This document shows positions 14,701-34,970 of a stretch of 64,000 nt of DNA, piece by piece. Numbering within the stretch: position 1 is the first letter of the stretch; each line of letters starts with the position of its first letter. The position numbers and the translations under genes are program-made. The notes beneath the pieces are model-generated. The model was not told the origin of the DNA. It saw only the letters and a program-made list of their open reading frames with translations, and did not search any database. This stretch comes from Clostridium sp. BNL1100 (GTDB lineage: Bacteria; Bacillota; Clostridia; Acetivibrionales; DSM-1351): contig NC_016791.1 of NCBI RefSeq assembly GCF_000244875.1, forward strand, positions 1,237,501 to 1,301,500, given 5' to 3'.

Positions 14701-16257
14701 ATGAGTATATTAAATGTAGAGAACGTAAGTCACGGCTTTGGTGCCAGGAAAATATTGGAGGATGCCTCTTTCAGACTTCTTAAGGGAGAGCATGTAGGAC
14801 TTGTCGGTGCCAATGGTGAGGGAAAATCCACTTTTTTAAATATTATAACCGGTAAGCTTATGCCTGATGAGGGTAAGGTGGAATGGTGTAACAGAATAAC
14901 AACGGGATATCTTGACCAACATACGGTTCTTACTCCGGGAAAGACTATCAGAGAAGCACTTCGAGAAGCTTTTCAGTATATGTTTGATTTGGAAAAGGAA
15001 ATGCTGGAGATATATGAAAAAATGGGCGATGCTTCAGAGAGTGAAATTAACTCAATGATGGAAGACGTAGGGGATATACAGAATGTACTGGAGCATAACG
15101 GCTTTTATATATTGGATTCGAAGATAGAAGAAGTAGCAAACGGTCTGGGGCTTGGGGATATAGGTCTTGAAACAGATGTAGCAAACCTGAGCGGAGGACA
15201 GAGAGCAAAGGTACTACTTACAAAACTACTTCTGCAAAGCCCTATGATATTAATATTGGACGAGCCTACCAACTTTTTGGACGAGAATCATATTAACTGG
15301 CTTAAGAATTATTTGAAAAATTACGAAAACGCATTCATTCTTGTTTCACATGACATTCCATTTTTGAATGACGTTGTAAATGTAATTTACCATGTTGAGA
15401 ATGCTGTGCTCACAAGGTATGCGGGAAATTATGATGAGTTCCAGAGAATGTATCAGCTGGCAAAACAGCAGACTCAGCAGGCATATGAGAAGCAGCAGAA
15501 GGAAATTGAGAAGCTTGAGGATTTCATAGCAAGAAACAAGGCTCGTGTAGCAACAACAAATATGGCAAAGAGCAGACAGAAAAAGCTTGACAAGATGGAT
15601 ATTATTGAAAAGGTTAAGGAAAAGGCTAAACCTATTTTCAAATTTAGAGAGGCAAGGGCTCCAGGAAGGTATATTTTCCAGACTGAAAATCTTGTAATCG
15701 GCTATGAATCGGCTTTGTCAAGTCCTTTGAATATCTCCTTGGAGAGAGGGCAAAAAGTAGCTGTAAAGGGAGTAAACGGTCTTGGTAAATCTACCCTGAT
15801 GAAAACCCTTTTAGGTGTACAAAAGTCATTTGCAGGAAGTGTAAAGCTTGATGATTACCTGTATCCGGGCTACTTTGAACAGGAATCTGAACGTTATAAC
15901 ACAAATACTGCATTAGAAGAAGTGTGGAACGATTATCCCGGTATGAGCAATGCCGAGGTACGAGGAGCTTTGGCTAAATGCGGTTTGACTACAGAGCATA
16001 TAACAAGCCAGATGATGGTACTAAGCGGCGGCGAAAACGCAAAGGTCAGACTGTGTAAGCTTATGTTGAAGGATGTTAACTGGCTTATATTGGATGAACC
16101 TACAAACCATTTGGATGTTGATGCAAAAGACGAGCTAAAAAGAGCATTGAGAGAGTTTAAGGGTACAGTACTACTGGTATGCCACGAACCTGAATTCTAT
16201 GAGGATTGGGTTACCGATGTGTGGAATGTGGAGGACTGGACAACAAAAATAGTTTAA
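14701..16257 (+). CDS. ABC-F family ATPase
   Basis: The 518-residue cytoplasmic protein has two ABC ATPase domains and no membrane segments. The first domain has Walker A GANGEGKS and LSGGQRAK followed by LILDEPTNFLD; the second has GVNGLGKS, LSGGENAK and LILDEPTNHLD. The linker (about 255-310; ARVATTNMAKSRQKKLDKM) is the basic, helical P-site tRNA interaction motif typical of ABC-F proteins. These bind the ribosomal E site and rescue or regulate translation; some give antibiotic resistance. It is closest by eye to the YbiT-like housekeeping group rather than to a resistance type. Confidence 0.9.
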   Translation: MSILNVENVSHGFGARKILEDASFRLLKGEHVGLVGANGEGKSTFLNIITGKLMPDEGKVEWCNRITTGYLDQHTVLTPGKTIREALREAFQYMFDLEKEMLEIYEKMGDASESEINSMMEDVGDIQNVLEHNGFYILDSKIEEVANGLGLGDIGLETDVANLSGGQRAKVLLTKLLLQSPMILILDEPTNFLDENHINWLKNYLKNYENAFILVSHDIPFLNDVVNVIYHVENAVLTRYAGNYDEFQRMYQLAKQQTQQAYEKQQKEIEKLEDFIARNKARVATTNMAKSRQKKLDKMDIIEKVKEKAKPIFKFREARAPGRYIFQTENLVIGYESALSSPLNISLERGQKVAVKGVNGLGKSTLMKTLLGVQKSFAGSVKLDDYLYPGYFEQESERYNTNTALEEVWNDYPGMSNAEVRGALAKCGLTTEHITSQMMVLSGGENAKVRLCKLMLKDVNWLILDEPTNHLDVDAKDELKRALREFKGTVLLVCHEPEFYEDWVTDVWNVEDWTTKIV

Positions 16258-16371: not shown

Positions 16372-17976
16372 TTATTTGCAAATTTTTTGTTTGTACTCCT
16401 TAGGGCTCATTCCGGCATATTTGGTAAAAACATGAGTAAAGTAGGCGGGATCTTCAATGCCCACAGCACTGGCTACCTCGAAAACTTTTCTTGCAGGGTC
16501 TTTTAAAAGCTTTTTAGCATAGTCAATACGATAGTTGTTAATGGCATCCACGATAGATTCGCCTGTTTCCTTTTTATATACTCTGCTCAGATAACTACTG
16601 TTTATATGGATGTGATCAGCTATGGACTGAAGGTTTATATTTTTGTTAAAATTATCACGAATATGCTTATGGGTTTCCTTTACTAAATAACTGAATTTAT
16701 TATCATTGCTTACAACAACTTGTGCAACACTTTCTATTAACTTCCTTAAGACATCTAGCAAATTTTGGATATTTCTACTGGACTGTATCTGCTTGTATAT
16801 TTCGGGCTCGCTTTCGGCAAGCTCCGGAGCTAACAACTTGTAGCTTGCAAGAAGCCTGAAACAATAAGAGGCTATGAGCATACAGGAGACCTTGATGTTT
16901 TCTATAGGCTCTTTATTACTCCTGTATTCCTCTAAAAGCTTTTCAATGCTTTTTACTGCCTCTGATGGATTTTCCAACTTGAGACTACTGACAATTTTCT
17001 CAGCAAAATAATGTGGATGGTTTGTTGAGGAAAGCACAGGGGGGGTGTGGGGCATAAAAACTGAAACATGGTTGTTATTGTAAAATCCACCCTTCAGTGC
17101 TTCCTTGGCCTCCTGGTAGGCAACAGGCAGAGCCTGAACCTTTTGCTGCATTTGACTCAGTCCAATACTGATAGTAAACCTCATGAAGCTGTCCGCCATA
17201 GACAGAATTTCATTGCAGGTCATGAGCAGGGTTTGAGTACATACAGGAACATTGTAGTTCTTGAAAGAAATTACGGCAGCAAGGAGATTTCTGTCCATTG
17301 CCACAGTATAGTGAGGGTAACTCTTAAATGCCAGGGAAAGCAAATTATTCACAGACTGAATGAATTTATTGTAGTCCTCGGGGCTGATTAATGAATTTCC
17401 GTTCGAAACGCTGTGAATGTCAAATAAAACAACAAAATAGTTTTCGATATTTATTTCAAGTTCAGCAAGTTTGCTTTGAAGAATAGTTTCATTTACAATA
17501 ATTCCATTAAACACATCTTTGAAAAACTTTTCCCTTATTTCTGATAGTCTCAGATTTGCTTTTTCTTCCATAAGCTTCAACTTTTCTTCTGTTGCTTTTT
17601 CTTGTGCAATTAAAGCCTTTGCTTTACAAATGGCATCAGGGATTTTCTCAGTTGGGTTTGTTTTTATGACAAAATCCAATACATTGTATTTAATTGCAGC
17701 CTGAGCATAGGTGAAGTCTGAAAAGGCTGTAAGAATGATGACTTTTATAGAAGGATAATTTTCATATATAAGTTTTGATAGTTCCAGGCCATCCATTCCA
17801 GGCATTTTAATATCAGTTAAGACAATATCCACGGGATGGACTGCCAATTTTTCCAATGCATCAATCCCATTTTGTGCATCACATATCACTTGGCAATCAA
17901 GAGCTTCCCAATTGACAAAGCATAAAAGCCCCTGCTTTATTACCGGTTCATCATCAACAATCATTACGTTATACAT
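16372..17976 (-). CDS. yesN: YesN-type response regulator with AraC output domain
   Basis: The 534-residue regulator has a receiver domain (about 1-122; acidic VDDEP, phospho-acceptor Asp in VLTDIKMPG, LTAF, and Lys in FVIKTN). It has a long central helical region and a C-terminal AraC/XylS pair of helix-turn-helix motifs (about 430-532; IADHIHINSSYLSRVYKKET and EVASAVGIEDPAYFTHVFTK). It should activate sugar genes after phosphorylation by the neighbouring kinase. ATG 17976 is preferred because AGGAGTG lies nine bases upstream; the longer start at 17997 has no RBS. The gene overlaps the kinase gene by eight bases, implying translational coupling. It is transcribed away from the SLH glycosidase gene, its probable target. 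Confidence 0.93.
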   Translation of the reverse strand: MYNVMIVDDEPVIKQGLLCFVNWEALDCQVICDAQNGIDALEKLAVHPVDIVLTDIKMPGMDGLELSKLIYENYPSIKVIILTAFSDFTYAQAAIKYNVLDFVIKTNPTEKIPDAICKAKALIAQEKATEEKLKLMEEKANLRLSEIREKFFKDVFNGIIVNETILQSKLAELEINIENYFVVLFDIHSVSNGNSLISPEDYNKFIQSVNNLLSLAFKSYPHYTVAMDRNLLAAVISFKNYNVPVCTQTLLMTCNEILSMADSFMRFTISIGLSQMQQKVQALPVAYQEAKEALKGGFYNNNHVSVFMPHTPPVLSSTNHPHYFAEKIVSSLKLENPSEAVKSIEKLLEEYRSNKEPIENIKVSCMLIASYCFRLLASYKLLAPELAESEPEIYKQIQSSRNIQNLLDVLRKLIESVAQVVVSNDNKFSYLVKETHKHIRDNFNKNINLQSIADHIHINSSYLSRVYKKETGESIVDAINNYRIDYAKKLLKDPARKVFEVASAVGIEDPAYFTHVFTKYAGMSPKEYKQKICK

Positions 17977-19771
17977 TATCTGTTTCACTCCTATCAATGG
18001 GGATATGTACTGTTACCTTTGCTCCTATGTTAGTCTTGCTCTCAATTTGAACACCATAAGGCTCTCCATACATCAGCCTGATTCTTTTATGGGTATTTAA
18101 AAGGCCTATATTGTTATGCCCCTTCTTGCGTCGGGTAATGGTTTCGTTATCTTCCAGATTAATTTTGCCGGTTTTAAAACCTGCACCGTCATCTGTTACT
18201 TCAAAGAATATGGATTCGTTTTCCCTTCGTATAGTTAGTTCTAGGGTGCCTTTTCCGACCTTTTCTTCCAGCCCGTGAACTACCGCATTCTCCACAAGAG
18301 GTTCGATACACAGTTTGGGAAGTACAAAATCTAAAATGCTTTCGTCAGAAACATGAATATTATACTCAAGGTTGTCTCCGAATCGCATTTTCTGCAAATA
18401 AAGATAAAATTTCACAAATTCCAATTCCTGCCTTATGGGGATCTTTGCCTGACTATTGGAATAAATACCAGCTTGTAACAGCTCTGTGAGGGATGTGACC
18501 ATTTTATAGATAGTCTCATCTTTTGCTAACTTGGCTTTATATCCAATAGTAATAAGGGTGTTGAAAAGGAAATGCGGATTCATCTGGGACTGAAGAAATT
18601 TAAATTCTGTCTCTTTTATTAGCAATTGTTTTTCATAAACCTGATTGATAAGATACTTTATTTCATCGGTCATATTGTTGAAGGTATTACTCAGCAGTTC
18701 CAGTTCGCTCTCTTTGTAATAAGGCATTTTAACCTCATAATCTCCAACTTTTACCCTGTTAATAACGGAAAGCAGGTCTCTGACAAATCTGGTAAACCTC
18801 AGGGAAATAATAATTCCGGCAAAAACCGATACAAATATAATAATAGCTGTGATAACGATATAATTTTTCATACTGTTGGACAGATTTGCCAAAACCTGTT
18901 TTTTGGGAATTCCGGCAATAAAGTTCAGCCCGGTATCACTTATTTTTCTACGTGCAATTAAATATGTAATATTTCCTATGTCAATCTCACAAACACCTGT
19001 ATCATTTACTAAATTCATGATGGAGGAATGTACATTGCTTCCAATCATGTCTCTCTGAGAACTGGAATAAATAATGCCTTTTTCATCCGTAATATATACC
19101 ATTGACCCTTGAAATGAAAGTAGTTCGCTATATTCTTTATAGAGATCTTCTTCTTCGGTTCCTAAAATCATAACCAACCTTTGCTTAGGATTATTAATGT
19201 TTGTGACTATGCGTGTAAAATAAATAGTTCTGTCATTCAAGGAAGGGGGTATTATTGTCTTTCCCCTGATTTTGCTGCCGCTTATTTTTTTAAATATTTT
19301 TATATTGTTATCGTCTAACAGCTGTATATTTGGTGTGGATTTGAAAATGGAGCAATAAGTGTCTTCATTCAAAAAAACATAGGCTGTAGAGATGAGGTTC
19401 ATATCCCATGCATTATTAAACATCAAGCTGTATTTGAGGTCTTCTTCAATAAGGCTTTTATTTATGAAAAGGCTGTAGAAATCTCCATCAAAAGTCGTAT
19501 TGCCCGAAGCCCAGGATCTTATAGATTTATTGGAAAGAAAATGAAGAGAGGTGGTGTCGATTATTTTATAAGAATTCTCAATATTTCCGTTTGTTTGATG
19601 AATAAGATGAATCAAATTGTCATTGGCGTTTTTTGTTAATACTGAAGCCATGTTCCAATAAAAATAAATGCCAACAAGAGACATGGATAGCAGAAGTAAT
19701 AGAACTACAGCTAATGTAATCTTGTGCCGGATGGGTGTTCTTTTGATGTATTGGATCATATTCATTAGCAA
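17969..19771 (-). CDS. yesM: YesM-type sensor histidine kinase
   Basis: The 600-residue membrane kinase has TM1 (about 18-40), an extracellular sensor of the dCache type (about 42-300), TM2 (about 305-328), HAMP (about 329-380) and a His_kinase/HATPase module. The phospho-acceptor His is in QMNPHFLFNTL, the N box is VENAVVHGLEE, and the G box is DDGAGFKTG. YesM-type kinases usually sense sugars or sugar-binding proteins. The start is TTG 19771 with AAGGAGTT six bases upstream; ATG 19765 is the alternative. It precedes yesN in one operon and is divergent from the large SLH protein gene. Confidence 0.92.
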   Translation of the reverse strand: MLMNMIQYIKRTPIRHKITLAVVLLLLLSMSLVGIYFYWNMASVLTKNANDNLIHLIHQTNGNIENSYKIIDTTSLHFLSNKSIRSWASGNTTFDGDFYSLFINKSLIEEDLKYSLMFNNAWDMNLISTAYVFLNEDTYCSIFKSTPNIQLLDDNNIKIFKKISGSKIRGKTIIPPSLNDRTIYFTRIVTNINNPKQRLVMILGTEEEDLYKEYSELLSFQGSMVYITDEKGIIYSSSQRDMIGSNVHSSIMNLVNDTGVCEIDIGNITYLIARRKISDTGLNFIAGIPKKQVLANLSNSMKNYIVITAIIIFVSVFAGIIISLRFTRFVRDLLSVINRVKVGDYEVKMPYYKESELELLSNTFNNMTDEIKYLINQVYEKQLLIKETEFKFLQSQMNPHFLFNTLITIGYKAKLAKDETIYKMVTSLTELLQAGIYSNSQAKIPIRQELEFVKFYLYLQKMRFGDNLEYNIHVSDESILDFVLPKLCIEPLVENAVVHGLEEKVGKGTLELTIRRENESIFFEVTDDGAGFKTGKINLEDNETITRRKKGHNNIGLLNTHKRIRLMYGEPYGVQIESKTNIGAKVTVHIPIDRSETDNV

Positions 19772-20130
19772 TGTGTCAACTCCTTAATTATAGCATGTTA
19801 AGAGGGAATATAGAATTATATATTATGTAACCCTATAATTCTACATAATTCTACAAAATAATTCTACAAGATAATTCTACAAATTAAGTTGTGTTCCTTC
19901 TCCAAAAAAGCATGAGGTAAAAAAAATCATACAATGGTAAAGATATTACAAGCAATTCTGAATCGGTAAATATTTTCTCTGAAATGGGAATTTAATTTAG
20001 AAATATTACAAAAACAAGTATAAATAACTAATTAACTTTATGTCATCTGGGAAGTAAAATATAATTCATTAAAATGAGAGGAGTATCTAGAATTCGGATG
20101 ATCTTTTAGTAAATTTAATGGAGGGATAAA
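19772..20130. promoter_or_regulatory. Divergent control region with short repeats and ~124-bp upstream element
   Basis: This 359-base stretch has no gene. The motif ATAATTCTAC occurs at 19835, 19845, 19858 and 19871, with an inverted copy TAGAATTATA at 19811-19820. From 19916 to 20040 lies a sequence that recurs upstream of the sugar-binding-protein gene (27121-27244). A TATAAT at 20060-20065 with only a poor -35 is the likely promoter of the downstream gene, as expected when an activator is needed. Confidence 0.65.
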
Positions 20131-23100
20131 ATGTATAAAAAGGTTATTATGAAAATGGTTTCGGTAGTACTAAGCGTTTGCATGTTACTTTCAACTGCAT
20201 TTCAAAGCGGAATAACATACGCAGCGGGTAGTGATACAAGCTTAATTATTGATCAAAGCCAATTGAACGGGGAATATGCTCTTAATCTATCACAGGTTGG
20301 AGATATTGATTGGTTACATTTTAAAGGCGATGGTTCAAATGGTGTTACACCGATTAGTAAGTCAGCTACTTCAAGTGCTATATCATTTAATGTACTCCCC
20401 AATTCTGCCCCTGAGGGTAAAGTAAGTAATGGCGATCCCGATCGAGTAGCCAGTACTTGGATTGACGGTATGGCCGGTTATGAATCAGGCACCAATGATA
20501 CCGGGTTTGCTGTTCTATTCCCCCCGGCAGGCAGCAGAGGTGCCGGTACCTGCGCTGATAACGTCGGCTGGAATTTTTCAGTAGCAGCGCAGCCTGTCCA
20601 GACAACAGTTGTATTTACTGTTGGGCTTTGGCAGTCAAAAGTTGATGTAAAATTCTACATGGATGGCACGCAGGTTGATACAAAAAGTTTATCTGTCGGC
20701 GGCGGCGCTCAGGTATATAAATACCAGGTAATGGTACCTGCAAATAAGGTATTGAAGGTTGAAGGTATACAAACAGAAATATTATCACAGGACGGTAATT
20801 CTTCAATCTCAAACATAGCAGTGGGTACAAAGGGACTTAATATTTCACAAAACCAGGTGAGCGGGGAATCTGTTCTTAATCTTTCAACAGCTGGAAATGT
20901 TGACTGGTTGCATTTAAAAGGAGACGGTTCAGGCAATATCTTACAAATAAAGAAAGCAACTACTCCAAGTGCCATTTCATTCAACACATTATCAAATACA
21001 GGTTCTGAGGGCAAAGTAAGTAATGGTGATGCAGACCGTATGGCCTATACCTGGACTGACGGTATGGCAGGATATGAAGCGGGTACTAATGATACAGGGT
21101 TTGGTGTTTTATTTCCAAAAGACAATAGAGGCTCAGGTATCTGCAGCGCTGACGTAGGCCTTAATTTTACGGTAGCAGCACAACAGCAGGAAACAACAGT
21201 GCTATTTGGCGTGGGACTCTGGCAGGCAAAAGTAGATGTAAAATTCTATATGGATGGTGTACTGGCTGATACCAAAAGGATTTCGGCAGGCGGTGGTGCC
21301 CAGACATACAAATATCAGGTAATTGTACCTGCAAATACGGAACTGAAGGTTGAGGGTATACAAAAAGAGACTTTATTCCAGGATGGTAATTTTTCACTCT
21401 CTGGTATAGCGGTGGGCGATGGAGCCTATGTTGATAAGACAGCTTTACAAAACCTATATGATGGAGTTAAGGATTTAGTTCAGGGTTCCTATACAGCAGA
21501 ATCATGGGCAGCTTTTGATAGTGCGCGTACTTCTGCAAAAGCTGTTCTTGACGATCCGGCTGCAACACAGACTGCAATAGACAGTGCAAAAACTATATTG
21601 GAACAGGCACAGGCTGCTCTTGTGACCATTAATGCAAATGATTTAAAAATTACTCAAACTCAAAGTAATGGGGTGTACAACATTGACCTGACTGTAGTTG
21701 GAAATGTTGACTGGCTACATTTAAAAGGAAATGGTTCAAACGGTCTTATACAGATTAAGAAGAATACTGAGAATGCCATTTCTTTCAACGCACTTCCTAA
21801 TACTGTAACAGAAGGGAAGGAAACTAATGGTGATACTAACCGTGCGGTCGCATCTTGGACAGATGGAATGGCTGGTTATGAATCACTCAGCAATGATACC
21901 GGCTTTGGTGTTTTCCTACCTTTGGCGGATGATAGAGCTGCCGGTGCCTGCAAGGAAAATGTAGGCTGGAATTTTTCAGTAGCAGCACAACCTACTTTGA
22001 CAACCGTTGTATTCAGTACTGGTATCTGGCAGGCAAAAGTAGATGTAAAATTCTACCTTGATGGTCAATTCGTTTCTACTAAAACTATGGAAGCAGGCGG
22101 TACTTCACAAGTATTCAAATATCAGGTAGTTGTTCCTGCAAACAAGGTTCTTAAGGTTGAGGGTATTCAAACATATAAAAATGCTTATGATGGTAACTCA
22201 TCATTATCAAATATAGCAGTAAGCAGCGTAGAAATCGCTGACAAGTCTTCCTTACAAACATTATATGATGAACTTAACGGAATAACCCAAAGCTTTTTTA
22301 CAGATGCCTCATGGCAGATTTTTATTGATTCAAAAGTAGCAGCAAAAGCAATCCTGGATAAAACCAGCGCGACACAGGCAGAGGTTGACAATGCAAAAGC
22401 TGCACTTACCTTGGCTCTGAATAATCTTGTAAAAAAAGCTACAAATGTGATGATTGACTATACAGGTGGTAAAAAGGGGTTAAGTTATGCTCTGGGTCAT
22501 GAGATAGATCAACAGGACAGATACCAGACCTTTACATCCAGTGTTGATTTCACAATGGAATATGTCCAAGTTGGGTTATATAAAAATTCTGAGGATGGAA
22601 ACGATTTAATTGTAAAGTTGTATGCAACAGATAGCAATGGACTGCCTACGGGAACTGCTCTAGCGCAAACGACTGTGCCAAAGTCAGACATTATACAAGG
22701 TGGCTTAACTACAGCTAAGCTTAGCTATAATATAGTTAAAGACACAAGATATGCTATCGATGTAACTCAGTCTACATTAAAAAATGGCATGTACAACTGG
22801 ATAGTTATGCCAAAAAATTATTATACAAAAAATGAATTTTACGGTAAGACAGTTTCAGGAAGTTTTGTACCTGAGGCATGGCTTGGTACAGGGTTATTGA
22901 AAGTTATAAAACAACTGAATGTAAACAGAGATTCACTTGAAGCGTTGGTATCAGAAGTAAGCAAGTATAATGATAAAATTTATACTGTTGAATCCTGGCT
23001 GACTTTAGTGGATGCTAAAGAATCAGCAAAAAATTGCCTGAATAACTTTGATGCATCGCAGGCAGAAATTGATGCTCAAACCGCAAACCTGATGGCTGCT

Positions 23101-26100
23101 AAAGATAGTCTTGTTATAAATATAGACATATCTGATTTCAACAGTTTTATTACAAGTTTTGATAATATGGTAGTTAAAGGCTATACAACTGCTTCTGTAG
23201 CTGTATTAACAGATGCAATTGCAAATGCAAAACAATTGGACAGCAGCGTTTCCGATGCTGAAAAGCTGCAGGCCTACGTATCAGTTCTGAACGCTATTTC
23301 AAAACTTCAGGTTTCAGGAAAATATTCATCTGAAACAGATGGAGGACTGACAGGGTCATTTGGTTTTGAAGGTGACATGAATGCTCCGATAGCTTATATT
23401 GACGGATCCTTTAGATTGCCAAGCAGAGGTAATCTGATGATAAGATTTGGTGTGACAGGGCTTAAGGAAAAAGGAGTTTCAGTTGATTGGTATAACAGGG
23501 ACGGATATTTGCCTTGTTATGTAAGTGAATACACAGTAGATGGTGTTACATATAAAATCGAAGAGTTTGCCAATAAACACACAATAGACGGCAACCCTGT
23601 AGAAATTGCATATGTAAAAATGACGGCAATAAACAACTCAGGTGAAAAACGATTACTTCCTGTTGTATCAAAGGAATTAGTGCCGCTTAATAACGCTGCT
23701 GAATCTTCTTACGTTATAAATGCAGGAGAAACAGTTGTAAGAGAGTATGCAATAAAAGCAGATAGATTTGAAAATGAGGGGCATACCGGAGAAAGGTATG
23801 AGGTGGAACCTAAAGCCCCGTTCCCAGTGGATCAGAAAATTCTTGAAGCTGCAAAAGTTGTTGCTGATACTGGTAAAAACAGTATATTTGAAAATAATTA
23901 TGCAGCAATGAAGAATTACTGGGATAACAGACTTGCAGGAATAATAGATATAGAAATGCCTAACAGTAAAGATGCAAATAACAAAGACAGTCTGGTTAAT
24001 GCATATAAGGCAGGATATATTTATACTCTTATTATCAAGGATAAAACATTCTTACATGTTGGTGAGAACGGCTATGACAGACTGTTTTCACACGATACAA
24101 TCGGAATTTTGCAGTCACTTATTACTGCGGGTGACTTCCAAGAAGCTAAGGATTATCTTGAAAGCGTTCCCATGACCGGTGGAGTAAACATTGAGAATGG
24201 TGAAGTAGATCCTGATCTATACTGGGATGCAAACTGGAAGTTACCATGGGCATACTCAGTGTATTTAAGTAAAACGGGAGATCTTGATTTTATAAAAGAA
24301 AAGTATGAAGGTGTAATCAAAAAGATGGCACATTCTATTCATGACGACCGTACAGGTGCAAACCATGATGGAATTATGAAAAGCACTCTCGCTATTGATT
24401 CATACGGCCAATGGACAGTTGATGATCAGGCTGCGCTTATGGGGATTATAGCATATAAATACATTTGTAACGAATTAGCAATAAAGGAAAATGACCAAAG
24501 CAAGAAAGAGTACTACTTATCAGAGGCTCAATGGGCAAATACTGAATATGACAGTTTATTGAAAGTGGTAACAGAGACTCTTGAAAATACTATTAGCACT
24601 AATAATTTAAACTATATTCCGGCTTCAATAGTTCAGCCGAATACTGAAAACAGATGTAATGATATTAGAGATGCAAACTGGGCATCAATGTTGTTATTCG
24701 GATCATTCCCATGGGATGGATATCTGTATGGCGCGGATCAAAGCAAGGCTGGGGCGAATATAGATATGATAGACCAGACTTATGCATATGGGTTAGAAAG
24801 ACGTAAAGACTTGCCGGGTGCTTCACCTTATAATTTTGGAGGTTATCCTCACGGCTGGTACTCAAGTGCATATAATGCAGGATATGGTATTGCAGCACTT
24901 CGTGGTGAAGCTTATAGAGATATAGGAATAAAAGCTTATGAATTTGCTATAAATAGTGCTATGAGCTCACCCTTTGGCTGGTGGGAAGGTGTCGGACCAA
25001 CTAATTTTCCGACACAAGATCCTACATCTGCATTGTGGAGTCACGATAATGCTTCCGGCGGTGGAGGTTCCTGTCAGCACATGTGGGGACAGGCAACAGC
25101 CTCCAAAGTCCTGTATGATGCATTTATAGCTGAAAGAATCTATAATGATAATAAAAATGCGGATCTTATTATCGGACGCGGTATTCCTAAAGAATGGGTA
25201 ACTAATGCCACTAATGATAATAACGTAGTTGCAGCTGTTGAAAACTCTCCGGTTCTTCAAGGCGGAAGAGCGGGATATACAATTGTAAGAGATGGCAGCA
25301 AGCTGAAATTTACATTTGACCTTAACAAGGAAAACTCAAAAATTGATGCCGGTACTGTAGAACAATGGAGTATCCAACTTCCATATATGGTAAACAATAT
25401 CTATTCAGCTTCTGTTGGAATAGTAGATAATGCCAATGGTATTGTTACCGTTCCTATAGAGACTCAGGAAGTTACAATTGAGCTGAAGGATTTAATGTCT
25501 GGCTCTTTGTCTATAGATACTACATCTTTGCCAAACGGCAAGGTTGGTACAGCATATTCGTATGAACTAAATGCGGTAGGTGGAACAGCGCCCTACAAAT
25601 GGAGTGTTGAAGGACTTCCGGCAGGTCTGTCTATCACAAATGAGGGAGAAATAAAAGGTACTCCTGTAGTAGCCGGTACTTTTAGTGTTAACGTAAATGC
25701 AGAAGACAGCAGCAATCCGATTATGAGTGTAAGTAAAACTTTAAGCATTGTTATAGCTCCTGTAAACGGCACAGGCAGTGGTAATGGAAACACTGGTTCT
25801 GGAAGTACCGGAGAGACTGTAATTCCGGTTGATTCCACCACAAACGGTGATCAAATACTACTCTCTGTTTCATTAAAAGCAGGAAATGAATCGGGAGCAG
25901 CTGTAGCTAATGTTGCAAAAACTACCATTAACAATCTTTTAGAAAAAGCTAAGGAAGCGGAAAGTAATGGACAGAAAGCTACAATTGAAATAAAACTTGA
26001 TTCTGACGAAGATACAAAGTCTGTAAAGATAGGACTTCCTGCGGAAGCGCTGAAAGAAATCTCCAAAACTGTCGGAGCTAACATTAAGTTTAGCACTAGA

Positions 26101-27024
26101 CTGGGAAGTGTTGTTTTTGACGCTGTAGCAATAGATTCAATAAATGCTTCTGCTACATCTGGTAATGTAAACATTATAATAAATAAGGAAGAAGCTTATT
26201 CCTTATCAGAAGAAATAAGGACTACAGTGGGAGATCGTCCTGTTTATGATTTCTCAATTCAGTCTGGTGATAAAGAGATAACAGAATTTGGCGGAGGAAA
26301 AGCCCTGGCAAGCATACCTTATAATCCAAAGTCAAATGAGAAGCAAAACTCTATCATAATCTACCACATAGATAAGGATGGAAACTTAAAAACTGTCAGA
26401 AGTATATATAACCATGTTTCAGGTACAGTGAATTTCATAACCAATCATTTTTCACAGTATGCCGTAGGTTACAATGAAGTAAATTTCAAAGATATTACAT
26501 CCAAAGACTGGTATGATAAAGCAGTTGGATTTATGTCGGCCAGAGGTATAGTGAAAGGTGTGGGAGACAGTAGTTTCGCTCCTCAGAATAAAGTTACAAG
26601 AGCTGATTTCCTCATAATGGTAATGAAGTCTTACGGTATTGAGGTTGATAAGACAGTAACAGACAACTTTACAGATGTCGGCAGCAAATACTATACCAAT
26701 TATCTGGGCACTGCAAAACGCCTTGGTTTGGTATCAGGAACAGGAGATAACAAATACATGCCGGATGCTACCATTAGCAGACAGGATATGCTTGTTATAC
26801 TGTACCGAGTATTAAACACACTTGGTGAATTACCGGCTGCAAAAAACGGAAATTTTGATGGTTTTAGCGATACAAAGGATATTTCCGGGTACGCGAAAGA
26901 TACAATGAAGTTATTTGTTGAGGCAGGTATTGTTGCTGGAGATAACAATAAATTGAACCCTAAGGCCAACACATCAAGAGCTGAGGCAGTACAGGTATTG
27001 TATAATCTACTGTCCAAAATATAA
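20131..27024 (+). CDS. Giant SLH-anchored putative glycosidase
   Basis: The 2297-residue exported protein has a signal peptide (1-32) and three ~195-residue copies of a beta-rich module starting near 37, 237 and 506 (shared VDWLHLKG, DGMAGYE and NDTGFGV motifs). FIVAR-like three-helix modules lie near 435, 704 and 932, and a beta module at 772-930. A beta-sandwich (about 1070-1230) leads into a helical (alpha/alpha)6-barrel-like region (about 1280-1720; RLFSHDTIG, WDANWKLPWAY, QHMWGQA), the layout of GH15/GH65-like enzymes. A putative-Ig domain (about 1795-1880), a Gly/Ser/Thr linker, a pre-SLH domain (about 1910-2110) and three SLH repeats (2117-2297) follow. It probably cuts a glucan or glycoside at the cell surface. 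The exact GH family and substrate are not recognised. GGAGGG precedes the ATG. Confidence 0.85.
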   Translation: MYKKVIMKMVSVVLSVCMLLSTAFQSGITYAAGSDTSLIIDQSQLNGEYALNLSQVGDIDWLHFKGDGSNGVTPISKSATSSAISFNVLPNSAPEGKVSNGDPDRVASTWIDGMAGYESGTNDTGFAVLFPPAGSRGAGTCADNVGWNFSVAAQPVQTTVVFTVGLWQSKVDVKFYMDGTQVDTKSLSVGGGAQVYKYQVMVPANKVLKVEGIQTEILSQDGNSSISNIAVGTKGLNISQNQVSGESVLNLSTAGNVDWLHLKGDGSGNILQIKKATTPSAISFNTLSNTGSEGKVSNGDADRMAYTWTDGMAGYEAGTNDTGFGVLFPKDNRGSGICSADVGLNFTVAAQQQETTVLFGVGLWQAKVDVKFYMDGVLADTKRISAGGGAQTYKYQVIVPANTELKVEGIQKETLFQDGNFSLSGIAVGDGAYVDKTALQNLYDGVKDLVQGSYTAESWAAFDSARTSAKAVLDDPAATQTAIDSAKTILEQAQAALVTINANDLKITQTQSNGVYNIDLTVVGNVDWLHLKGNGSNGLIQIKKNTENAISFNALPNTVTEGKETNGDTNRAVASWTDGMAGYESLSNDTGFGVFLPLADDRAAGACKENVGWNFSVAAQPTLTTVVFSTGIWQAKVDVKFYLDGQFVSTKTMEAGGTSQVFKYQVVVPANKVLKVEGIQTYKNAYDGNSSLSNIAVSSVEIADKSSLQTLYDELNGITQSFFTDASWQIFIDSKVAAKAILDKTSATQAEVDNAKAALTLALNNLVKKATNVMIDYTGGKKGLSYALGHEIDQQDRYQTFTSSVDFTMEYVQVGLYKNSEDGNDLIVKLYATDSNGLPTGTALAQTTVPKSDIIQGGLTTAKLSYNIVKDTRYAIDVTQSTLKNGMYNWIVMPKNYYTKNEFYGKTVSGSFVPEAWLGTGLLKVIKQLNVNRDSLEALVSEVSKYNDKIYTVESWLTLVDAKESAKNCLNNFDASQAEIDAQTANLMAAKDSLVINIDISDFNSFITSFDNMVVKGYTTASVAVLTDAIANAKQLDSSVSDAEKLQAYVSVLNAISKLQVSGKYSSETDGGLTGSFGFEGDMNAPIAYIDGSFRLPSRGNLMIRFGVTGLKEKGVSVDWYNRDGYLPCYVSEYTVDGVTYKIEEFANKHTIDGNPVEIAYVKMTAINNSGEKRLLPVVSKELVPLNNAAESSYVINAGETVVREYAIKADRFENEGHTGERYEVEPKAPFPVDQKILEAAKVVADTGKNSIFENNYAAMKNYWDNRLAGIIDIEMPNSKDANNKDSLVNAYKAGYIYTLIIKDKTFLHVGENGYDRLFSHDTIGILQSLITAGDFQEAKDYLESVPMTGGVNIENGEVDPDLYWDANWKLPWAYSVYLSKTGDLDFIKEKYEGVIKKMAHSIHDDRTGANHDGIMKSTLAIDSYGQWTVDDQAALMGIIAYKYICNELAIKENDQSKKEYYLSEAQWANTEYDSLLKVVTETLENTISTNNLNYIPASIVQPNTENRCNDIRDANWASMLLFGSFPWDGYLYGADQSKAGANIDMIDQTYAYGLERRKDLPGASPYNFGGYPHGWYSSAYNAGYGIAALRGEAYRDIGIKAYEFAINSAMSSPFGWWEGVGPTNFPTQDPTSALWSHDNASGGGGSCQHMWGQATASKVLYDAFIAERIYNDNKNADLIIGRGIPKEWVTNATNDNNVVAAVENSPVLQGGRAGYTIVRDGSKLKFTFDLNKENSKIDAGTVEQWSIQLPYMVNNIYSASVGIVDNANGIVTVPIETQEVTIELKDLMSGSLSIDTTSLPNGKVGTAYSYELNAVGGTAPYKWSVEGLPAGLSITNEGEIKGTPVVAGTFSVNVNAEDSSNPIMSVSKTLSIVIAPVNGTGSGNGNTGSGSTGETVIPVDSTTNGDQILLSVSLKAGNESGAAVANVAKTTINNLLEKAKEAESNGQKATIEIKLDSDEDTKSVKIGLPAEALKEISKTVGANIKFSTRLGSVVFDAVAIDSINASATSGNVNIIINKEEAYSLSEEIRTTVGDRPVYDFSIQSGDKEITEFGGGKALASIPYNPKSNEKQNSIIIYHIDKDGNLKTVRSIYNHVSGTVNFITNHFSQYAVGYNEVNFKDITSKDWYDKAVGFMSARGIVKGVGDSSFAPQNKVTRADFLIMVMKSYGIEVDKTVTDNFTDVGSKYYTNYLGTAKRLGLVSGTGDNKYMPDATISRQDMLVILYRVLNTLGELPAAKNGNFDGFSDTKDISGYAKDTMKLFVEAGIVAGDNNKLNPKANTSRAEAVQVLYNLLSKI

Positions 27025-27316
27025 TAAATTAAGGGGTTAATCCTGAAAAATGCACCTAAACTGATAGGACATTACATGGTGTTCATCAGTTCAGGTGCAT
27101 TTTTTAAGCCGAAGCAGAAAGTAAAAAAAATTATACAATGGTAAAAATATTACAAGCAATTTAAAATTGTTGAATAATTTATCGGCAGTAGGGAATTTAA
27201 TTAGAAATATTACAAAAACAAGTATAAATAACAAATTAACTTTTAAGATTCAACATCCTATAATTTTATTGTAGCGCTACTAGTCAAAATGTAAAAACAA
27301 CAAGGAGGAATTTAGA
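27025..27316 (+). promoter_or_regulatory. Control region of the sugar importer operon
   Basis: After the terminator at 27046-27105 comes the second copy of the ~124-bp upstream element (27121-27244). A weak TTAACT (27236-27241) and TATAAT (27259-27264) are 17 bases apart. The ten-base palindrome GTAGCGCTAC (27271-27280), with the central CG typical of LacI/CcpA-type operators, sits just after the -10, where a repressor would block initiation. Confidence 0.65.
27046..27105 (+). terminator. Rho-independent terminator of the SLH glycosidase gene
   Basis: TGCACCTAAACTGAT (27051-27065) and ATCAGTTCAGGTGCA (27085-27099) pair with one mismatch, followed by a T run. Confidence 0.88.
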
Positions 27317-28648
27317 ATGAAAAGGTCCGCAGCATTATTATTAACTGCAGCAATGGTTGCATCTTTAGCTGCATGTGGTTCAAATGCAACTTCTGACAAA
27401 ACGGCAGAGGTTTCAGGGTCAACCAGCGCGAAAACAAGTGTTGAAGCAAAGGCACCGGTAACAATAAAATATCCTACATACAGAGTAGGTACTCATTACT
27501 CTGCTCCTTTCGAGAAGGATCAGATTGAAAAATTTAATGAAAAATTCGGCAATGAAATAAAGGTGCAGGTGGAAGAGATTCCTAGCGATACGGCATATAA
27601 CGACAAAATGAAAATTTTAGCAGCGTCAGGAGATCTTCCCGATGTTATTATGGGTAAAAACGGAATAAATGAAATATTAATCAAAGGCAACCTGGCTACA
27701 CCTTTTAATGAATATATGGATAAGGATCCAGAATGGAAATCTGATATAGGTGATGAAGCACTTGCCGCAAATACACGGGATGGGAAAATATGGTCCATCA
27801 GTGATCAAAAACAGGTTATAGGTTATTTTTACAATAAGGATATGTTCGAAAAGGCAGGTATAAAGCCTGCTGAAACCTGGGATGAGTTTATGACTAACTG
27901 CGACAAATTAAAAGCAGCAGGTTTTGCTCCGTTGGCTTTGATGACAGGTGAAAATGCATGGACAACCAACCTTTTGCTTTCCTCAATGGTAGGTACAAGC
28001 GGAGAGGCCGGAACTAAATACATGAATACTCTTCACCCAACAAGTTTTGAAACTCCTGAAGTTATCGATGCATTGAAGAAAATGCAAATAATGTTGCAGA
28101 AATATACAACAAAAGATGCAATAGGAGCAGTATATGCAAATGCAGCAAATAATTTCGAACAGGGTAAAACTGCTATAATTGCCAACGGCCCATGGATGAT
28201 CGGTGATTTCAGTGATAAGACCAAGTCTCCGGAAGGCTTCGACAAGAAGGTTGGTGTTGCTGCATACCCTGGAAGCGGAGCATTTTTGTCGTACGAAGTA
28301 GGATATATGATTGGCTCAGAAACTCAAGAGAAAAAAGATGCTGCAGCTAAATTTATTAAGTACAAGACCGGCGTTGAAGGACAATCCATAGCACTGGAAC
28401 TCGGTAACGTGTTACCCGTTTCAGACAAGGTACAGCCTTCAGAAGAATTCAAACAGAAATATCCGGTATTTGTAGAGACCATTGAGGTAGGAAATAGTGC
28501 AAAGGTTAAATACCAGTACTTTGACACTATTGTACTCCCAAATGTAACTGATTCCTGGAAGAATTTGTATCCAGAATTGGCTTTCAATAAGATAACAGCC
28601 GAAGAGATGGCAAAGAAACTTACTGAGATATCTGCAAAGAATAAATAG
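27317..28648 (+). CDS. Sugar-binding lipoprotein of an ABC importer
   Basis: The 443-residue family 1 extracellular solute-binding protein is the ligand receptor of a carbohydrate ABC importer (CUT1 type). A lipoprotein signal (1-20) ends in the lipobox LAAC, so the mature protein is anchored through Cys20. A Ser/Thr/Ala-rich linker follows to about residue 45, then the two-lobed binding fold (DKMKILAASGDLPDVIMG; AIIANGPWMIGDF). GGAGG precedes the ATG. The two permease genes follow after a 255-base gap that carries a repeat-like element and a hairpin, which may set a higher level of the binding protein. Confidence 0.93.
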   Translation: MKRSAALLLTAAMVASLAACGSNATSDKTAEVSGSTSAKTSVEAKAPVTIKYPTYRVGTHYSAPFEKDQIEKFNEKFGNEIKVQVEEIPSDTAYNDKMKILAASGDLPDVIMGKNGINEILIKGNLATPFNEYMDKDPEWKSDIGDEALAANTRDGKIWSISDQKQVIGYFYNKDMFEKAGIKPAETWDEFMTNCDKLKAAGFAPLALMTGENAWTTNLLLSSMVGTSGEAGTKYMNTLHPTSFETPEVIDALKKMQIMLQKYTTKDAIGAVYANAANNFEQGKTAIIANGPWMIGDFSDKTKSPEGFDKKVGVAAYPGSGAFLSYEVGYMIGSETQEKKDAAAKFIKYKTGVEGQSIALELGNVLPVSDKVQPSEEFKQKYPVFVETIEVGNSAKVKYQYFDTIVLPNVTDSWKNLYPELAFNKITAEEMAKKLTEISAKNK

Positions 28649-28662
28649 TATTACTGTCTGTT

Positions 28663-28829
28663 AGAACCTGCTCAGTATCTTATTACACTCGTCATTTTGG
28701 CGGACTTCACACCATGCTGCGTTAAATTTTCTTGCAATAAACAAATTTTATTTACTGCGAAAATTTGGTCCTTGCCTGACACAAAATCCACTTGAAATGC
28801 CAAGCACAAGCAGATACTGAACAGGTTCT
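28663..28829. repeat. Inverted-repeat element (MITE-like)
   Basis: AGAACCTGCTCAGTATCT (28663-28680) and AGATACTGAACAGGTTCT (28812-28829) are reverse complements except for one base and enclose about 130 bases without a plausible gene. The size and terminal inverted repeats suit a small non-autonomous mobile element or a dispersed intergenic repeat. No target-site duplication is clear. Only one copy lies in the window. Confidence 0.5.
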
Positions 28830-28853
28830 TATAAAGAAATAAAGGTTGTAATG

Positions 28854-28883
28854 AATTCTCCTCGGAAAGTTCCGCGGAGAATT
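28854..28883 (+). other. Hairpin upstream of the permease RBS
   Basis: AATTCTCC..GGAA and TTCC..GGAGAATT form a strong interrupted stem with a two-base loop. It ends about nine bases before the AAGGAG of the permease gene and has no T run. It could shield the upstream transcript from 3' decay or affect permease translation. Confidence 0.55.
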
Positions 28884-28903
28884 GCATTTAAGGAGATGAT
28901 GAA

Positions 28904-29776
28904 ATGACTAAAAATAAAGGCTACATAGCTTTATTCCTTATACCCACTTTAATTCTGTTTTTAATAGTTTATGCAGTATCAATTGTTATCCTTTTTGGTA
29001 CTTCTTTTACAGAATGGTCAACAGGAAGAAATCCTATTTTTATAGGATTAGGCAACTATATTAAAATGTTTACCGATGATTCGGATTTTAGGCAGAGCTT
29101 TATTAATACTATTATATGGATTGTTCTGCAGTCCACTGTTCACGTTTGTATTGGTGTTGTATTCGCTATTATTCTGAATATGAAGGAATTTTATTGGAAA
29201 TTTGCAAGAACAGTATTTATGATACCAAACATTATATCGGGGGCTGCCGTGGGAATGCTGTTCCTATGTATATTAAACCCTGAGTTTGGAGCTGTAAATA
29301 GTATTATCCGGTTATTGGGACTTGAGGATTTTTCTCAAAACTGGTTTATGGACTATAAAACATCTTTCTTTTCTGTAACTATGACCTGGTTACCTTATGC
29401 CGCTATTGTTACAATACTTGTTCTTGCTGAAATAGCAGCGATTCCTGATGGCCTTTTTGAAGCGGCCAGAATTGATGGCGCCAGCGAGATTAAAATAAAC
29501 CTGTATGTAGTGCTTCCTTTACTCAGAAATATTATCGGAACCTGTGTTATTTTATCTGGGACAAGTATGCTTCAGAAGCTAGATATAATTGTGATGACTA
29601 CAGGAGGAGGACCCGGAAATCAGACAATGAACCTCCCTATGTATATATATAAAACAGCATTAATGGACAACAATTTTGGATACTCGAATACTATAGGTAC
29701 ATTTCTTGTAGCGTTTGGAATTGTATTAGTACTAATATATCGTAAAATATTTAAAATAGGCAGTTCAGATGTATGA
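28904..29776 (+). CDS. Sugar ABC transporter permease (MalF-like)
   Basis: The 290-residue inner-membrane protein has six predicted membrane segments. The cytoplasmic EAA loop that docks the ATPase is visible as EAARIDGASEIKINLYVVLP (about 187-206). With the next gene it forms the membrane channel of a CUT1-type importer for an oligosaccharide. AAGGAG precedes the ATG. It is followed immediately, with a small overlap or a short gap depending on the start, by the second permease. Confidence 0.94.
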   Translation: MTKNKGYIALFLIPTLILFLIVYAVSIVILFGTSFTEWSTGRNPIFIGLGNYIKMFTDDSDFRQSFINTIIWIVLQSTVHVCIGVVFAIILNMKEFYWKFARTVFMIPNIISGAAVGMLFLCILNPEFGAVNSIIRLLGLEDFSQNWFMDYKTSFFSVTMTWLPYAAIVTILVLAEIAAIPDGLFEAARIDGASEIKINLYVVLPLLRNIIGTCVILSGTSMLQKLDIIVMTTGGGPGNQTMNLPMYIYKTALMDNNFGYSNTIGTFLVAFGIVLVLIYRKIFKIGSSDV

Positions 29777-29790
29777 AAGGGGTGACTGAT

Positions 29791-30621
29791 TTGAAAGGAA
29801 TGAAGCTTTTTTTATCAATTTTAAAATACATATTTGTTTTAGCCATAATTGTTTTATCAATTGGGCCATTTTTATGGGTGTTCATATCATCGTTTAAAAC
29901 GAATTCAGAGATACTTAATTCTACAATAGGATGGCCTTCAAGTCTTAGATTTTCAAATTATTTGAATGCATTTAAAATAGCTCCTTTAACACAGTTCTAT
30001 TTGAACAGTGTCATTGTAGGTATTTTCGGTACCTTATTGAATTTGATTATTATGGGAATGTCGGCTTATGTAGTTGCAAGGTTTGACTTTAAGGGTAAGA
30101 AATTATTAGTAGGTCTTTTTTCCCTATCTCTTCTAATCCCAGGTGCTGCAATGCTGCAGCCTTTGTATCTGACAGTGAATACGCTTGGACTGTATGACAA
30201 ACTAATAGGTTTGATTATTGTTTATGCAGGATTTGGACTTCCCGCATCACTTTATATAATTTCAAGTTATTTTCAAACAATACCAAAAGAAATGGAAGAG
30301 TCAGCCAGCTTGGATGGAGCAGGTTTTATCAGAACATTTGTCTCAATTATTCTTCCAATTGCTAAGCCTGGATTTGGAACAGCAGCTGTACTTCAGTTCC
30401 TGCTCTGCTGGAATGAATTTCAGTTTGCAATTACCCTTACTACAGGTAATAAGAGCCGTACGCTTCCATTGGCACTTTACTACTTTAAAAGTCAGTTTGC
30501 CAGTGATTATGGAGTAATGTTTGCGGCTACAGTTATTGTTATTATTCCAAGTATTATTGTGTATGTACTTCTGCAAAAGCAGGTTGTATCTGGATTGGCA
30601 GCGGGAGCGGTCAAAGGTTAA
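29791..30621 (+). CDS. Sugar ABC transporter permease (MalG-like)
   Basis: The product has about 276 residues, six membrane segments and the EAA loop ESASLDGAGFIRTFVSIILP. It is the partner of the upstream permease. The start is uncertain: ATG 29773 overlaps the stop of the previous gene but has no RBS, whereas TTG 29791 has AAAGGGG eight bases upstream, so the TTG is used here. No ATPase subunit is encoded nearby, so an MsmK/MalK-type ATPase from elsewhere must power the importer, as is common for Firmicute CUT1 systems. Confidence 0.92.
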   Translation: MKGMKLFLSILKYIFVLAIIVLSIGPFLWVFISSFKTNSEILNSTIGWPSSLRFSNYLNAFKIAPLTQFYLNSVIVGIFGTLLNLIIMGMSAYVVARFDFKGKKLLVGLFSLSLLIPGAAMLQPLYLTVNTLGLYDKLIGLIIVYAGFGLPASLYIISSYFQTIPKEMEESASLDGAGFIRTFVSIILPIAKPGFGTAAVLQFLLCWNEFQFAITLTTGNKSRTLPLALYYFKSQFASDYGVMFAATVIVIIPSIIVYVLLQKQVVSGLAAGAVKG

Positions 30622-30655
30622 ATGAGCTTCACTATTTGAAAAGGAATGGATTTTG

Positions 30656-32908
30656 ATGAGTAAACAAAATAAGACACATGTAGCAGACGGTTTATGGTGT
30701 ATAGAAGAGAACAGGTTTAGCCTGGATACAAACAAACATTTTGAAGGACTATTTACCCAGGGTAATGGCTATATGCATGTGAGAGGAAGCTTTGAGGAAG
30801 GCCTCCGGGGAGCGGCACAGGATGAAGAGTATATGCGTATGCCTGCTAATGTTACCCTTGAACAGCCAAGGCACACAGAAACTAAATGGGGAACCTTTAT
30901 ACCGGGTATTGTAGGAAAGCACCCGCTTCTAAAAGAGGAAATAATAAATCTGCCTTATTTTCTTGGTATGGACTTAGTCATTGCTGATGAAAAATTGGAT
31001 ATGGAGTCAAGTACCATAAAGGATTATAGAAGATGGTTGGATTTGAGGGACGGTTGCCTTTATAGAAGCTTCATATGGGTAACAGAAAATGGACTAAACC
31101 TTAAACTTAGTTATAAACGTTTTGTCAGTATAGAGGATAAACACCTCTGTTTGCAGCAGCTGCAGATAGAAATGCTCTCCGGAGAGGGGATTCTTGACAT
31201 CAGATGCGGCATAGATTCGGAAGTTAGAACCAATGGTTTTAATCATTTCAAAGAAGTACTGACAGAGGACAAGCACTCGGAATACATTTGTACAAAGACT
31301 GTTACAGATGGAGGAAACAATGTTTTAATGCTGTCAGGTATCAATGCTTCTGAGAATATTTGCTGGAGCAAGTTAACCCAAAGCAAAAATATATTTTTTT
31401 CAGGATTTAAGTTATTAAAGGCCGGAGATAGTCTGGAGGTTCAGAAAGTAACGTCGGTTGTCACCGACAGGGACCTTGAGGATGGAACTCTTATAGAAAG
31501 AGGACAGAAATATCTTGAATACTTCTTTAATCAAGGCTGGGAGAAAATATATAAAAGACATTCAATGGCTTGGAACAAAAAATGGGTTACCAGTGATATT
31601 GAAATAACCGGAGATGATGAGGCACAGCTTGCAATTCGTACATATATCTATCACCTTATCAGGGCAAATAGTGAAAATGACTCTAGAGTTGCTATCTGTG
31701 CGAAGGGATACGCCGGCGAAGCATATTTCGGACATTATTTCTGGGATACAGAGATAAACATGCTACCCTTCTTCATTCATACCAATCCTGAAGCTGCCAG
31801 AAACTTGTTAATGTATAGATATAACACCCTGAATGGTGCACGGAAAAACGCTATGGAATATGGGTATGAAGGGGCGAAATACGCATGGGAGGCGTCAGTT
31901 ACGGGAGAAGAACAATGTCCCTGCTGGCAGTACGCAGATCACGAAGTACATGTTACTGCGGATATCATATATGCCATGTACCATTATGCAAACGCTACAG
32001 GAGATACTGCATTTGTCAGAAGCTTCGGCATTGATATGATGGTTGAAACTGCAAGATATTGGGTGCAAAGGGTTGACAGAAACAATGACGGATATTACGA
32101 CCTGTTAGGTGTTATGGGGCCGGATGAGTACCTTCCCGTCACAAGGAACAATGCATTTACCAATCGCATGGTTAAGTTCAGTCTGGAAAAAACAGCAGAG
32201 CTTCTTAAAAAAATTAAGCATGAAGATAAAGACGGATATCTGGAAATTGAAAACCGGCTTGGTTTAAAGGCGTGGGAGCTAGACAAAATCAAGGAAGTCG
32301 GAGATAAGTTAATACTCCCTTATGACGAAAATTCAAAAATCGTTCCTCAGTCAGAGGATTTTGAAAGCTATGCGGATGTTAATTTTAATGCAATTTGGAA
32401 GGATAGAACCAAGCCCTTCGGAAATTTCATATCCCAGGAGAAAAACTACCGTTCCAAAGCTTTAAAGCAGGCTGATGTTATTGAACTGATGATGCTTTAT
32501 CCTGATGATTTCACTCGTGAGCAGTTAATTAATGCCTACGACTATTACGAACCTATAACAACCCATGACTCATCACTTTCAGCATCGGTTCACGGAATCG
32601 TAGCTGCCTGGATGGGGAGAATGACTGAATCTGAAAAATTCCTTAAAAAGGTTATGGCTATAGATATGTCTCAGGAGAAGAAAGGTGCGGCAGAAGGTAT
32701 ACACATAGCAAACTGCGGAGGTTTGTGGCAGATGATTGTATATGGCTTTGCCGGTCTTAAGAGTGCTATGTGGTGTGAGGAAATACAATTAGCACCGCAC
32801 CTTCCTGATAAATGGACAAATTTGAAATTTACACTGGCATGGCATGGAAAACGGTATAGAATTACCGTTACAAAAGACAAGCATGAGGTTACTGAATTAT
32901 ACGAGTAA
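30656..32908 (+). CDS. GH65 glycoside phosphorylase
   Basis: The 750-residue cytoplasmic enzyme belongs to glycoside hydrolase family 65, whose bacterial members mostly cleave alpha-glucosides with phosphate to give beta-glucose 1-phosphate (maltose, kojibiose, nigerose, trehalose and related substrates). It has an N-terminal beta-sandwich (about 1-280), an (alpha/alpha)6 barrel with FGHYFWDTEIN (near 359) and GVMGPDEYLPVTRNN, whose Glu (about 490) is the catalytic acid, and a C-terminal beta domain. No signal peptide is present. ATG 30656 is chosen (AAGGA ten bases upstream). Beta-phosphoglucomutase follows 24 bases later, which strongly supports phosphorylase rather than hydrolase activity. 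The linkage and acceptor sugar cannot be read from the sequence. Confidence 0.93.
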   Translation: MSKQNKTHVADGLWCIEENRFSLDTNKHFEGLFTQGNGYMHVRGSFEEGLRGAAQDEEYMRMPANVTLEQPRHTETKWGTFIPGIVGKHPLLKEEIINLPYFLGMDLVIADEKLDMESSTIKDYRRWLDLRDGCLYRSFIWVTENGLNLKLSYKRFVSIEDKHLCLQQLQIEMLSGEGILDIRCGIDSEVRTNGFNHFKEVLTEDKHSEYICTKTVTDGGNNVLMLSGINASENICWSKLTQSKNIFFSGFKLLKAGDSLEVQKVTSVVTDRDLEDGTLIERGQKYLEYFFNQGWEKIYKRHSMAWNKKWVTSDIEITGDDEAQLAIRTYIYHLIRANSENDSRVAICAKGYAGEAYFGHYFWDTEINMLPFFIHTNPEAARNLLMYRYNTLNGARKNAMEYGYEGAKYAWEASVTGEEQCPCWQYADHEVHVTADIIYAMYHYANATGDTAFVRSFGIDMMVETARYWVQRVDRNNDGYYDLLGVMGPDEYLPVTRNNAFTNRMVKFSLEKTAELLKKIKHEDKDGYLEIENRLGLKAWELDKIKEVGDKLILPYDENSKIVPQSEDFESYADVNFNAIWKDRTKPFGNFISQEKNYRSKALKQADVIELMMLYPDDFTREQLINAYDYYEPITTHDSSLSASVHGIVAAWMGRMTESEKFLKKVMAIDMSQEKKGAAEGIHIANCGGLWQMIVYGFAGLKSAMWCEEIQLAPHLPDKWTNLKFTLAWHGKRYRITVTKDKHEVTELYE

Positions 32909-32932
32909 TATAAAAGGACTGGAGGCAATAGT

Positions 32933-33613: not shown

Positions 33614-33655
33614 GCAATATGTAAAAGTATATTTGTCATGCATTGGGGGTAAAGG

Positions 33656-34774: not shown

Positions 34775-34970
34775 GTGGTTAAACAGAGAAAATTGTGATA
34801 TCTCCCTATAAATTTGAAACGAAGAGGTAAAAAAAACACAAGAAAAGTAAGAACATTCTGATTTTTTGCATGGTAAAAAAATATATAATAGTTATGTAAA
34901 CAAATAATTAAGCTATCAGATACTTTCCAAAACTTAAAATATTATTCAATAATCTAAAAAGGAGACTGTT

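Follow-up and report, generated by a model that had tools for sequence, protein, structure and literature searches.

Two copies of a phased half-site array as predicted operators of a YesM/YesN-type two-component system in a sugar-uptake cluster of Clostridium sp. BNL1100

The window analyzed here, a stretch of 64,000 nucleotides from Clostridium sp. BNL1100, raises the question of why a gene for a large surface protein and the genes for a sugar importer are preceded by nearly the same long piece of DNA. Next to them lies a YesM/YesN-type pair. Sugar sensing by pairs of this type is widespread among plant-degrading Firmicutes, and few of their binding sites are defined in the parts of the literature that were available. 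A first reading of the sequence alone had proposed that the duplicated element is an activator array, most likely for the adjacent YesN, that co-regulates the two transcripts. The comparative evidence presented here supports this proposal. The array very probably consists of binding sites for the adjacent AraC-type response regulator, which would activate the surface protein gene, the importer and also a GH43 gene. This is because the array is confined to the cluster, follows the regulator and the importer from genome to genome, is helically phased, and shows selection at the sites and not at the flanks.

The two regulatory genes lie on the minus strand. They encode a YesN-type response regulator with a receiver and an AraC-type helix-turn-helix (HTH) domain (16372-17997; Pfam Response_reg, 5e-24; HTH_18, 2e-17; HTH_AraC) and a YesM-type histidine kinase (17969-19771; Pfam His_kinase, 3e-24; HATPase_c; HAMP). 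The kinase gene is divergent from the surface protein gene (20131-27024; plus strand, like all features given below), whose product of 2297 amino acids is SLH anchored and carries FIVAR domains. In the interval between the kinase gene and the first array copy, imperfect tandem repeats of ATAATTCTACAA occupy 19825-19885, and about 31 bp of this are absent from the G002 ortholog. A strong hairpin with a U tail, resembling an intrinsic terminator (27044-27106; -33.6 kcal/mol, z -7.9), separates the surface gene from the second array copy, and a similar hairpin is present in G002. The sugar ABC importer (27317-30621; Pfam SBP_bac_8/1 and BPD_transp_1) comprises a solute-binding protein (27317-28648) and two permeases (28904-29776 and 29773-30621), and the remainder of its operon (30653-34774) encodes a GH65 enzyme, a beta-phosphoglucomutase-type HAD protein and a DUF4432 protein. 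It is followed by an SLH-anchored GH43 with CBM35, CBM6 and ricin-type modules (34971-40358), with galT and galK downstream. The ortholog of this GH43 is Ccel_3240 (PMC4976890), and the arrangement of galactokinase and GH43 in the relative G002 matches the published loci Ccel_3238 and Ccel_3240 of Ruminiclostridium cellulolyticum (PMC4976890), in keeping with strain H10 of that species.

Two copies that align over nearly their full length are present where they had been reported, before the surface protein gene (copy 1, 19917-20038) and before the importer (copy 2, 27121-27242), each with an aligned core of 122 bp. They are about 84 to 87% identical and have GTAAAAAAAAT, ATACAATGGTAAA, AGAAATATTACAAAAACAAGTATAAATAAC and AATTAACTT in common; their alignment bears out the description of shared ends and a less conserved middle. 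With the importer copy as the query, the surface-gene copy was found at E = 1.4e-35, with 87% identity over 123 bp, in the organism's own genome (one contig, 4,613,747 bp), which excludes chance likeness. The genome-wide search for more copies, which had been suggested as a check, returned only these two full copies, both in the same gene cluster; over the 4,613,747 bp no further full copy was found, the next-best matches reaching at most 38.3 bits. The 28-mer AAATATTACAAAAACAAGTATAAATAAC occurs just twice in the genome with three mismatches tolerated. The weaker genome matches (L003 to L012) were inspected and rejected as chance-like partial matches, mostly in coding sequence; a 45-bp match in G057 sits within a kinase-like coding region. 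Array copies are 93% identical between importer orthologs, 80% between surface-gene orthologs, and 84% and 79% between paralogs; gene conversion between copies may have occurred.

Alignment of all copies resolves the array into four ordered direct-repeat half-sites with the consensus RTMAARAWAWY, namely, A1 (GTAAAAAAAATCATA), A2 (GTAAAGATATTACAA), B1 (TTAGAAATATTACAA) and B2 (GTATAAATAACTAAT), the anchors of which were initially placed by eye. In copy 1 they are located at 19917-19931, 19937-19951, 19997-20011 and 20018-20032, and in copy 2 at 27121-27135, 27141-27155, 27201-27215 and 27222-27236. What had been described as a single long element is conserved, but not uniformly: it consists of the blocks A1-A2 and B1-B2 around a drifting spacer. 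The spacing in Ruminiclostridium is 20 bp for A1-A2, about 60 bp for A2-B1 and 21 bp for B1-B2, and the direct repeats within a pair are about two helical turns apart. In both copies a -35-like TTAACT (4/6) overlaps the end of B2, and a -10 begins 37 bp from the start of B2. The predicted surface-gene promoter (20032-20065) combines TTAACT (20032-20037), a 17-bp spacer and the -10 TAAAAT (20055-20060), with which a second candidate -10, TATAAT (20060-20065), overlaps. The predicted importer promoter (27236-27264) has TTAACT (27236-27241), again 17 bp, and the -10 TATAAT (27259-27264). The earlier observation of a -10 near the end of each copy holds, and the statement that a good -35 is lacking has to be modified, as the 4/6 hexamer stands at the end of the element at 17-bp spacing. 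At these predicted promoters the site is upstream of the weak -35 and touches it. The proximal half-site lies 36 to 38 bp before the -10 hexamer at the Ruminiclostridium importer, GH43 and Paenibacillus promoters, and 26 bp before it, one helical turn less, in Cohnella. The distance to the -10, together with the weak -35, fits a class II activator site for the B pair. In G002, the surface-gene leader (L079) contains an insert of about 124 bp, located between the promoter and the start codon, that is absent from the window; no Rfam match was found in it.

A search with a degenerate A-box (up to three mismatches) gave exactly three matches in the genome, at the surface gene, the importer and the GH43 gene, and none in the reversed control. 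The third of these is a half-array (34827-34889) in which A1 (34827-34841) and A2 (34847-34861) are followed by TATAAT (34884-34889), 37 bp from the start of A2; it is kept in G002 and G008. The looser version suspected near 34827-34915 is therefore real, but it is half length, with A1-A2 only (34827-34861). We predict from this site that the GH43 gene is the third member of the regulon. A generic half-site search (GTMAARAWA, 20-bp period, one mismatch) gave five matches versus five in the reversed control, indicating that a tandem site standing alone, with no B pair, is too weak a signal for delimiting a wider regulon; in this AT-rich genome, A-tract motifs taken singly are weakly specific. 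The importer promoter carries an additional feature just 3' of its -10, the LacI-type/cre-like palindrome TGTAGCGCTACTA (27270-27282), which is the sole genome match to TNTAGCGCTACNA. Six Ruminiclostridium genomes and Cohnella retain this palindrome at their importer promoters; it is absent at the surface gene and in Paenibacillus. It is likely to add a further layer of control, repressive and confined to the importer.

Within the genus, the importer array is shared with five other Ruminiclostridium species. Orthologs of the regulator and the importer are present in 6 of 11 genus genomes, and the array is found in exactly those six, all being missing together in the other five. The regulator gene is thus adjacent to the site and co-inherited with it. 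Between the window's genome (G000) and G002, over both promoters, 83 of 84 positions match in B1-B2 and 69 of 78 in A1-A2, compared to 53 to 63% identity in the flanks and 61% for the spacer of the array at the surface gene, so that, among orthologs sharing the DNA-binding domain, conservation of the sites exceeds the background. Only in G000, G001, G002, G008 and G010 does the surface gene immediately precede the importer, the last of these being a contig fragment with the kinase side outside it. In the R. cellobioparum-type genomes the surface-gene copy has drifted to about 54% identity and still has the 20- and ~50-bp spacing. A lone perfect A-box is seen near the kinase gene of these genomes (L080 in G001, 15321-15355; G008:C58:110449-110483); it may serve the kinase-regulator operon, or it may be a relic. 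In G003, the YesM/YesN-type pair and the importer are direct neighbors in divergent orientation, with a single array in between. In Clostridium folliculivorans the regulator and the importer are directly adjacent as well, and the surface-protein ortholog is found beyond the regulator genes. In this different gene order, the surface gene is still preceded by an A1-A2 pair of its own (20 bp), with a B1 at 61 bp; a clear B2 could not be made out. The A-box search in relatives returned the expected sites and a few before other sugar-transport genes. Similar 20-bp tandem sites precede other solute-binding-protein or permease genes in G000 (L132) and in relatives (L105, L115/L116), that of L132 lying just 3' of what appears to be another YesN-type regulator gene. 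These sites suggest that YesN paralogs share the site type.

The comparison with other genomes, also suggested earlier, extends well beyond the genus, and the array follows the regulator and the importer across species. All 12 Paenibacillus, Fontibacillus and Cohnella genomes have it before the orthologous importer, with a YesM/YesN-type pair directly divergent; their regulators are 48 to 55% and their kinases 58 to 67% identical. Position weight matrices trained only on seven related Ruminiclostridium sequences find the array in 12 of 12 of these orthologs, and in each case none of 200 dinucleotide shuffles reaches the score. At three of the 12 loci, one of about 100 control windows scores as high as the true site. 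When spacing was left free (16 to 26 for half-sites, 25 to 120 for A2-B1), all 13 loci examined still gave an A1-A2 of 20 bp (21 once), and 11 of the 12 Paenibacillaceae gave an A2-B1 of 50/51 or 61/62 bp, values that are one helical turn apart. An A-B distance that changes by full turns fits phasing. B2 is the least conserved half-site, with a spacing of 21 to 26 in distant genomes in the free search. Paenibacillus and three of four Cohnella genomes each have a single A-box, located before the importer; the fourth Cohnella genome has an A1-A2 spacing of 21 bp. The HTH domain, including the recognition helices, is 66 to 87% identical wherever the array occurs and 35 to 53% identical in more distant loci.

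The surface protein had been called a surface glycosidase. The surface part is supported by the SLH and FIVAR domains, but searches of Pfam, NCBIfam and PDB sequences found no recognized catalytic family in the 2297 residues, and a profile comparison with GH65 likewise found nothing. Two relatives share residues ~500-1600 at 58 to 75% identity. In a sample of 391 genomes of the class, residues 1062-1800 turned up in just 3; the structure model of the latter region had a pLDDT of 41 and was left out of the interpretation. Among the five SLH glycoside hydrolases of R. cellulolyticum described in PMC4976890 there is no protein of this 2297-residue type. It is possible that the protein represents a new enzyme family.

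Several other explanations have to be weighed. It is unlikely that the array belongs to a different regulator, either a paralogous YesN or another activator. The related 20-bp-period sites before other importer genes, and the site type that YesN paralogs seem to share, would allow this, but array and adjacent regulator are present or missing together in the Ruminiclostridium genomes and array and adjacent pair remain neighbors across Bacilli and Clostridia. We consider it very unlikely that the second copy merely survives, functionless at one of the two genes, from a segmental duplication or rearrangement that brought in the surface gene. The presence of only two copies and the drift of the R. 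cellobioparum-type surface-gene copy speak for this; against it, the half-sites are near-invariant in both copies while the spacer drifts, each copy has its -10 at 37 bp, the drifted copy keeps its spacing, and C. folliculivorans has an array at the surface gene despite its other gene order.

Two further possibilities have next to no probability. One is a mobile or hitchhiking repeat, which two copies 7.2 kb apart in one genome could bring to mind and which the sequence-only reading had itself set against its proposal. Such a repeat at unrelated genes was looked for in the genome and in plasmids and phages and was not found; the genome holds no further full copies, and in Paenibacillus and Cohnella the array is single copy at the orthologous gene. 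The other, equally improbable, is a transcribed leader RNA (riboswitch or attenuator) instead of a DNA operator. Long conserved noncoding DNA 5' of sugar genes can have this meaning, but here the array ends at the -35-like hexamer, wholly upstream of the predicted -10, its conservation is in short direct repeats and not in paired arms, and no Rfam match was found in the window segment or in relatives.

Operation of the array as the operator of the adjacent regulator can be pictured as follows. The kinase would sense a sugar signal, and the phosphorylated regulator would bind as two dimers to the two tandem sites, whose four direct-repeat half-sites all face the same side of the helix. The proximal dimer at B1-B2, overlapping the -35 region, would recruit sigma-A polymerase to a promoter with a weak -35 and a good -10, and the distal dimer at A1-A2, about six turns upstream, would add to activation. 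Copy 1 would drive the SLH surface protein, copy 2 the importer-GH65 operon and the half-length version the SLH GH43. With a terminator of this strength in front of it, the importer could not rely on an upstream promoter, and therefore each unit would have its own array. In the Ruminiclostridium genomes other than G003, the surface gene lies between regulator and importer, with its own array on one side and a strong terminator and the second array on the other, so that one regulator would serve both units. Because regulator and importer are direct neighbors in Paenibacillaceae, C. folliculivorans and G003, a single array before the importer is likely the ancestral state. The comparisons show the array itself, how it is conserved and spaced, its restriction to the cluster and its tie to the regulator; binding, its dependence on phosphorylation, activation and the order of events are what we infer from them. 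More tentatively, and with somewhat less than even confidence, we propose a phased two-dimer module whose inter-dimer distance evolves only by whole turns (~50 or 61 bp). It would be redeployed as a unit, in full (A and B) or in half (A), so that one sugar sensor has outputs of graded strength at its three targets (importer, surface protein and GH43), having been recruited to the surface gene in at least two gene orders.

In R. cellulolyticum, of the same genus, CuaS/CuaR, XuaS/XuaR, XydS/XydR and XygS/XygR are YesM/YesN-type pairs beside importer or hemicellulase genes (PMC5663094, PMC9675976, PMC3572039, PMC8576529). In an Escherichia coli reporter, the cuaA upstream region is activated by CuaR (PMC5663094), and XydR binds target upstream regions in EMSA (PMC3572039). 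These regulators belong to other clusters and come without a defined consensus site in the available parts of those papers, whereas a predicted site and its architecture are defined here. In Geobacillus stearothermophilus, a local two-component system controls a xylo-oligosaccharide ABC importer (Shulami 2007, as cited in PMC4780118). Another likeness is to Caldicellulosiruptor bescii, where tandem-repeat sites of AraC-type two-component regulators, with a 21- or 32-bp period, have been reconstructed for sugar importers; they are mostly upstream of promoters, so that the regulators are predicted to be activators (PMC8579813). There, too, direct-repeat half-sites about two turns apart lie upstream of the promoter beside a regulator and a CUT1-type importer, BxgRS has two tandem sites, and for AviRS the predicted targets are both a secreted enzyme (celD) and an importer (aviABC) (PMC8579813). 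The likeness drawn here is one of architecture. Unlike in C. bescii, two tandem pairs ~50 or 61 bp apart form one array, and this array has been copied before a surface SLH protein and can be followed through Clostridia and Paenibacillaceae. Operators of this tandem-repeat kind are already known for AraC-type two-component regulators, and the architecture here is unusually clear. The cluster offers an explicit four-half-site arrangement and a predicted three-promoter regulon, and it links an SLH protein without a recognized catalytic family to a defined sugar importer. Its natural spacing series (50 versus 61 bp, with or without the B pair) makes activator helix phasing directly testable.
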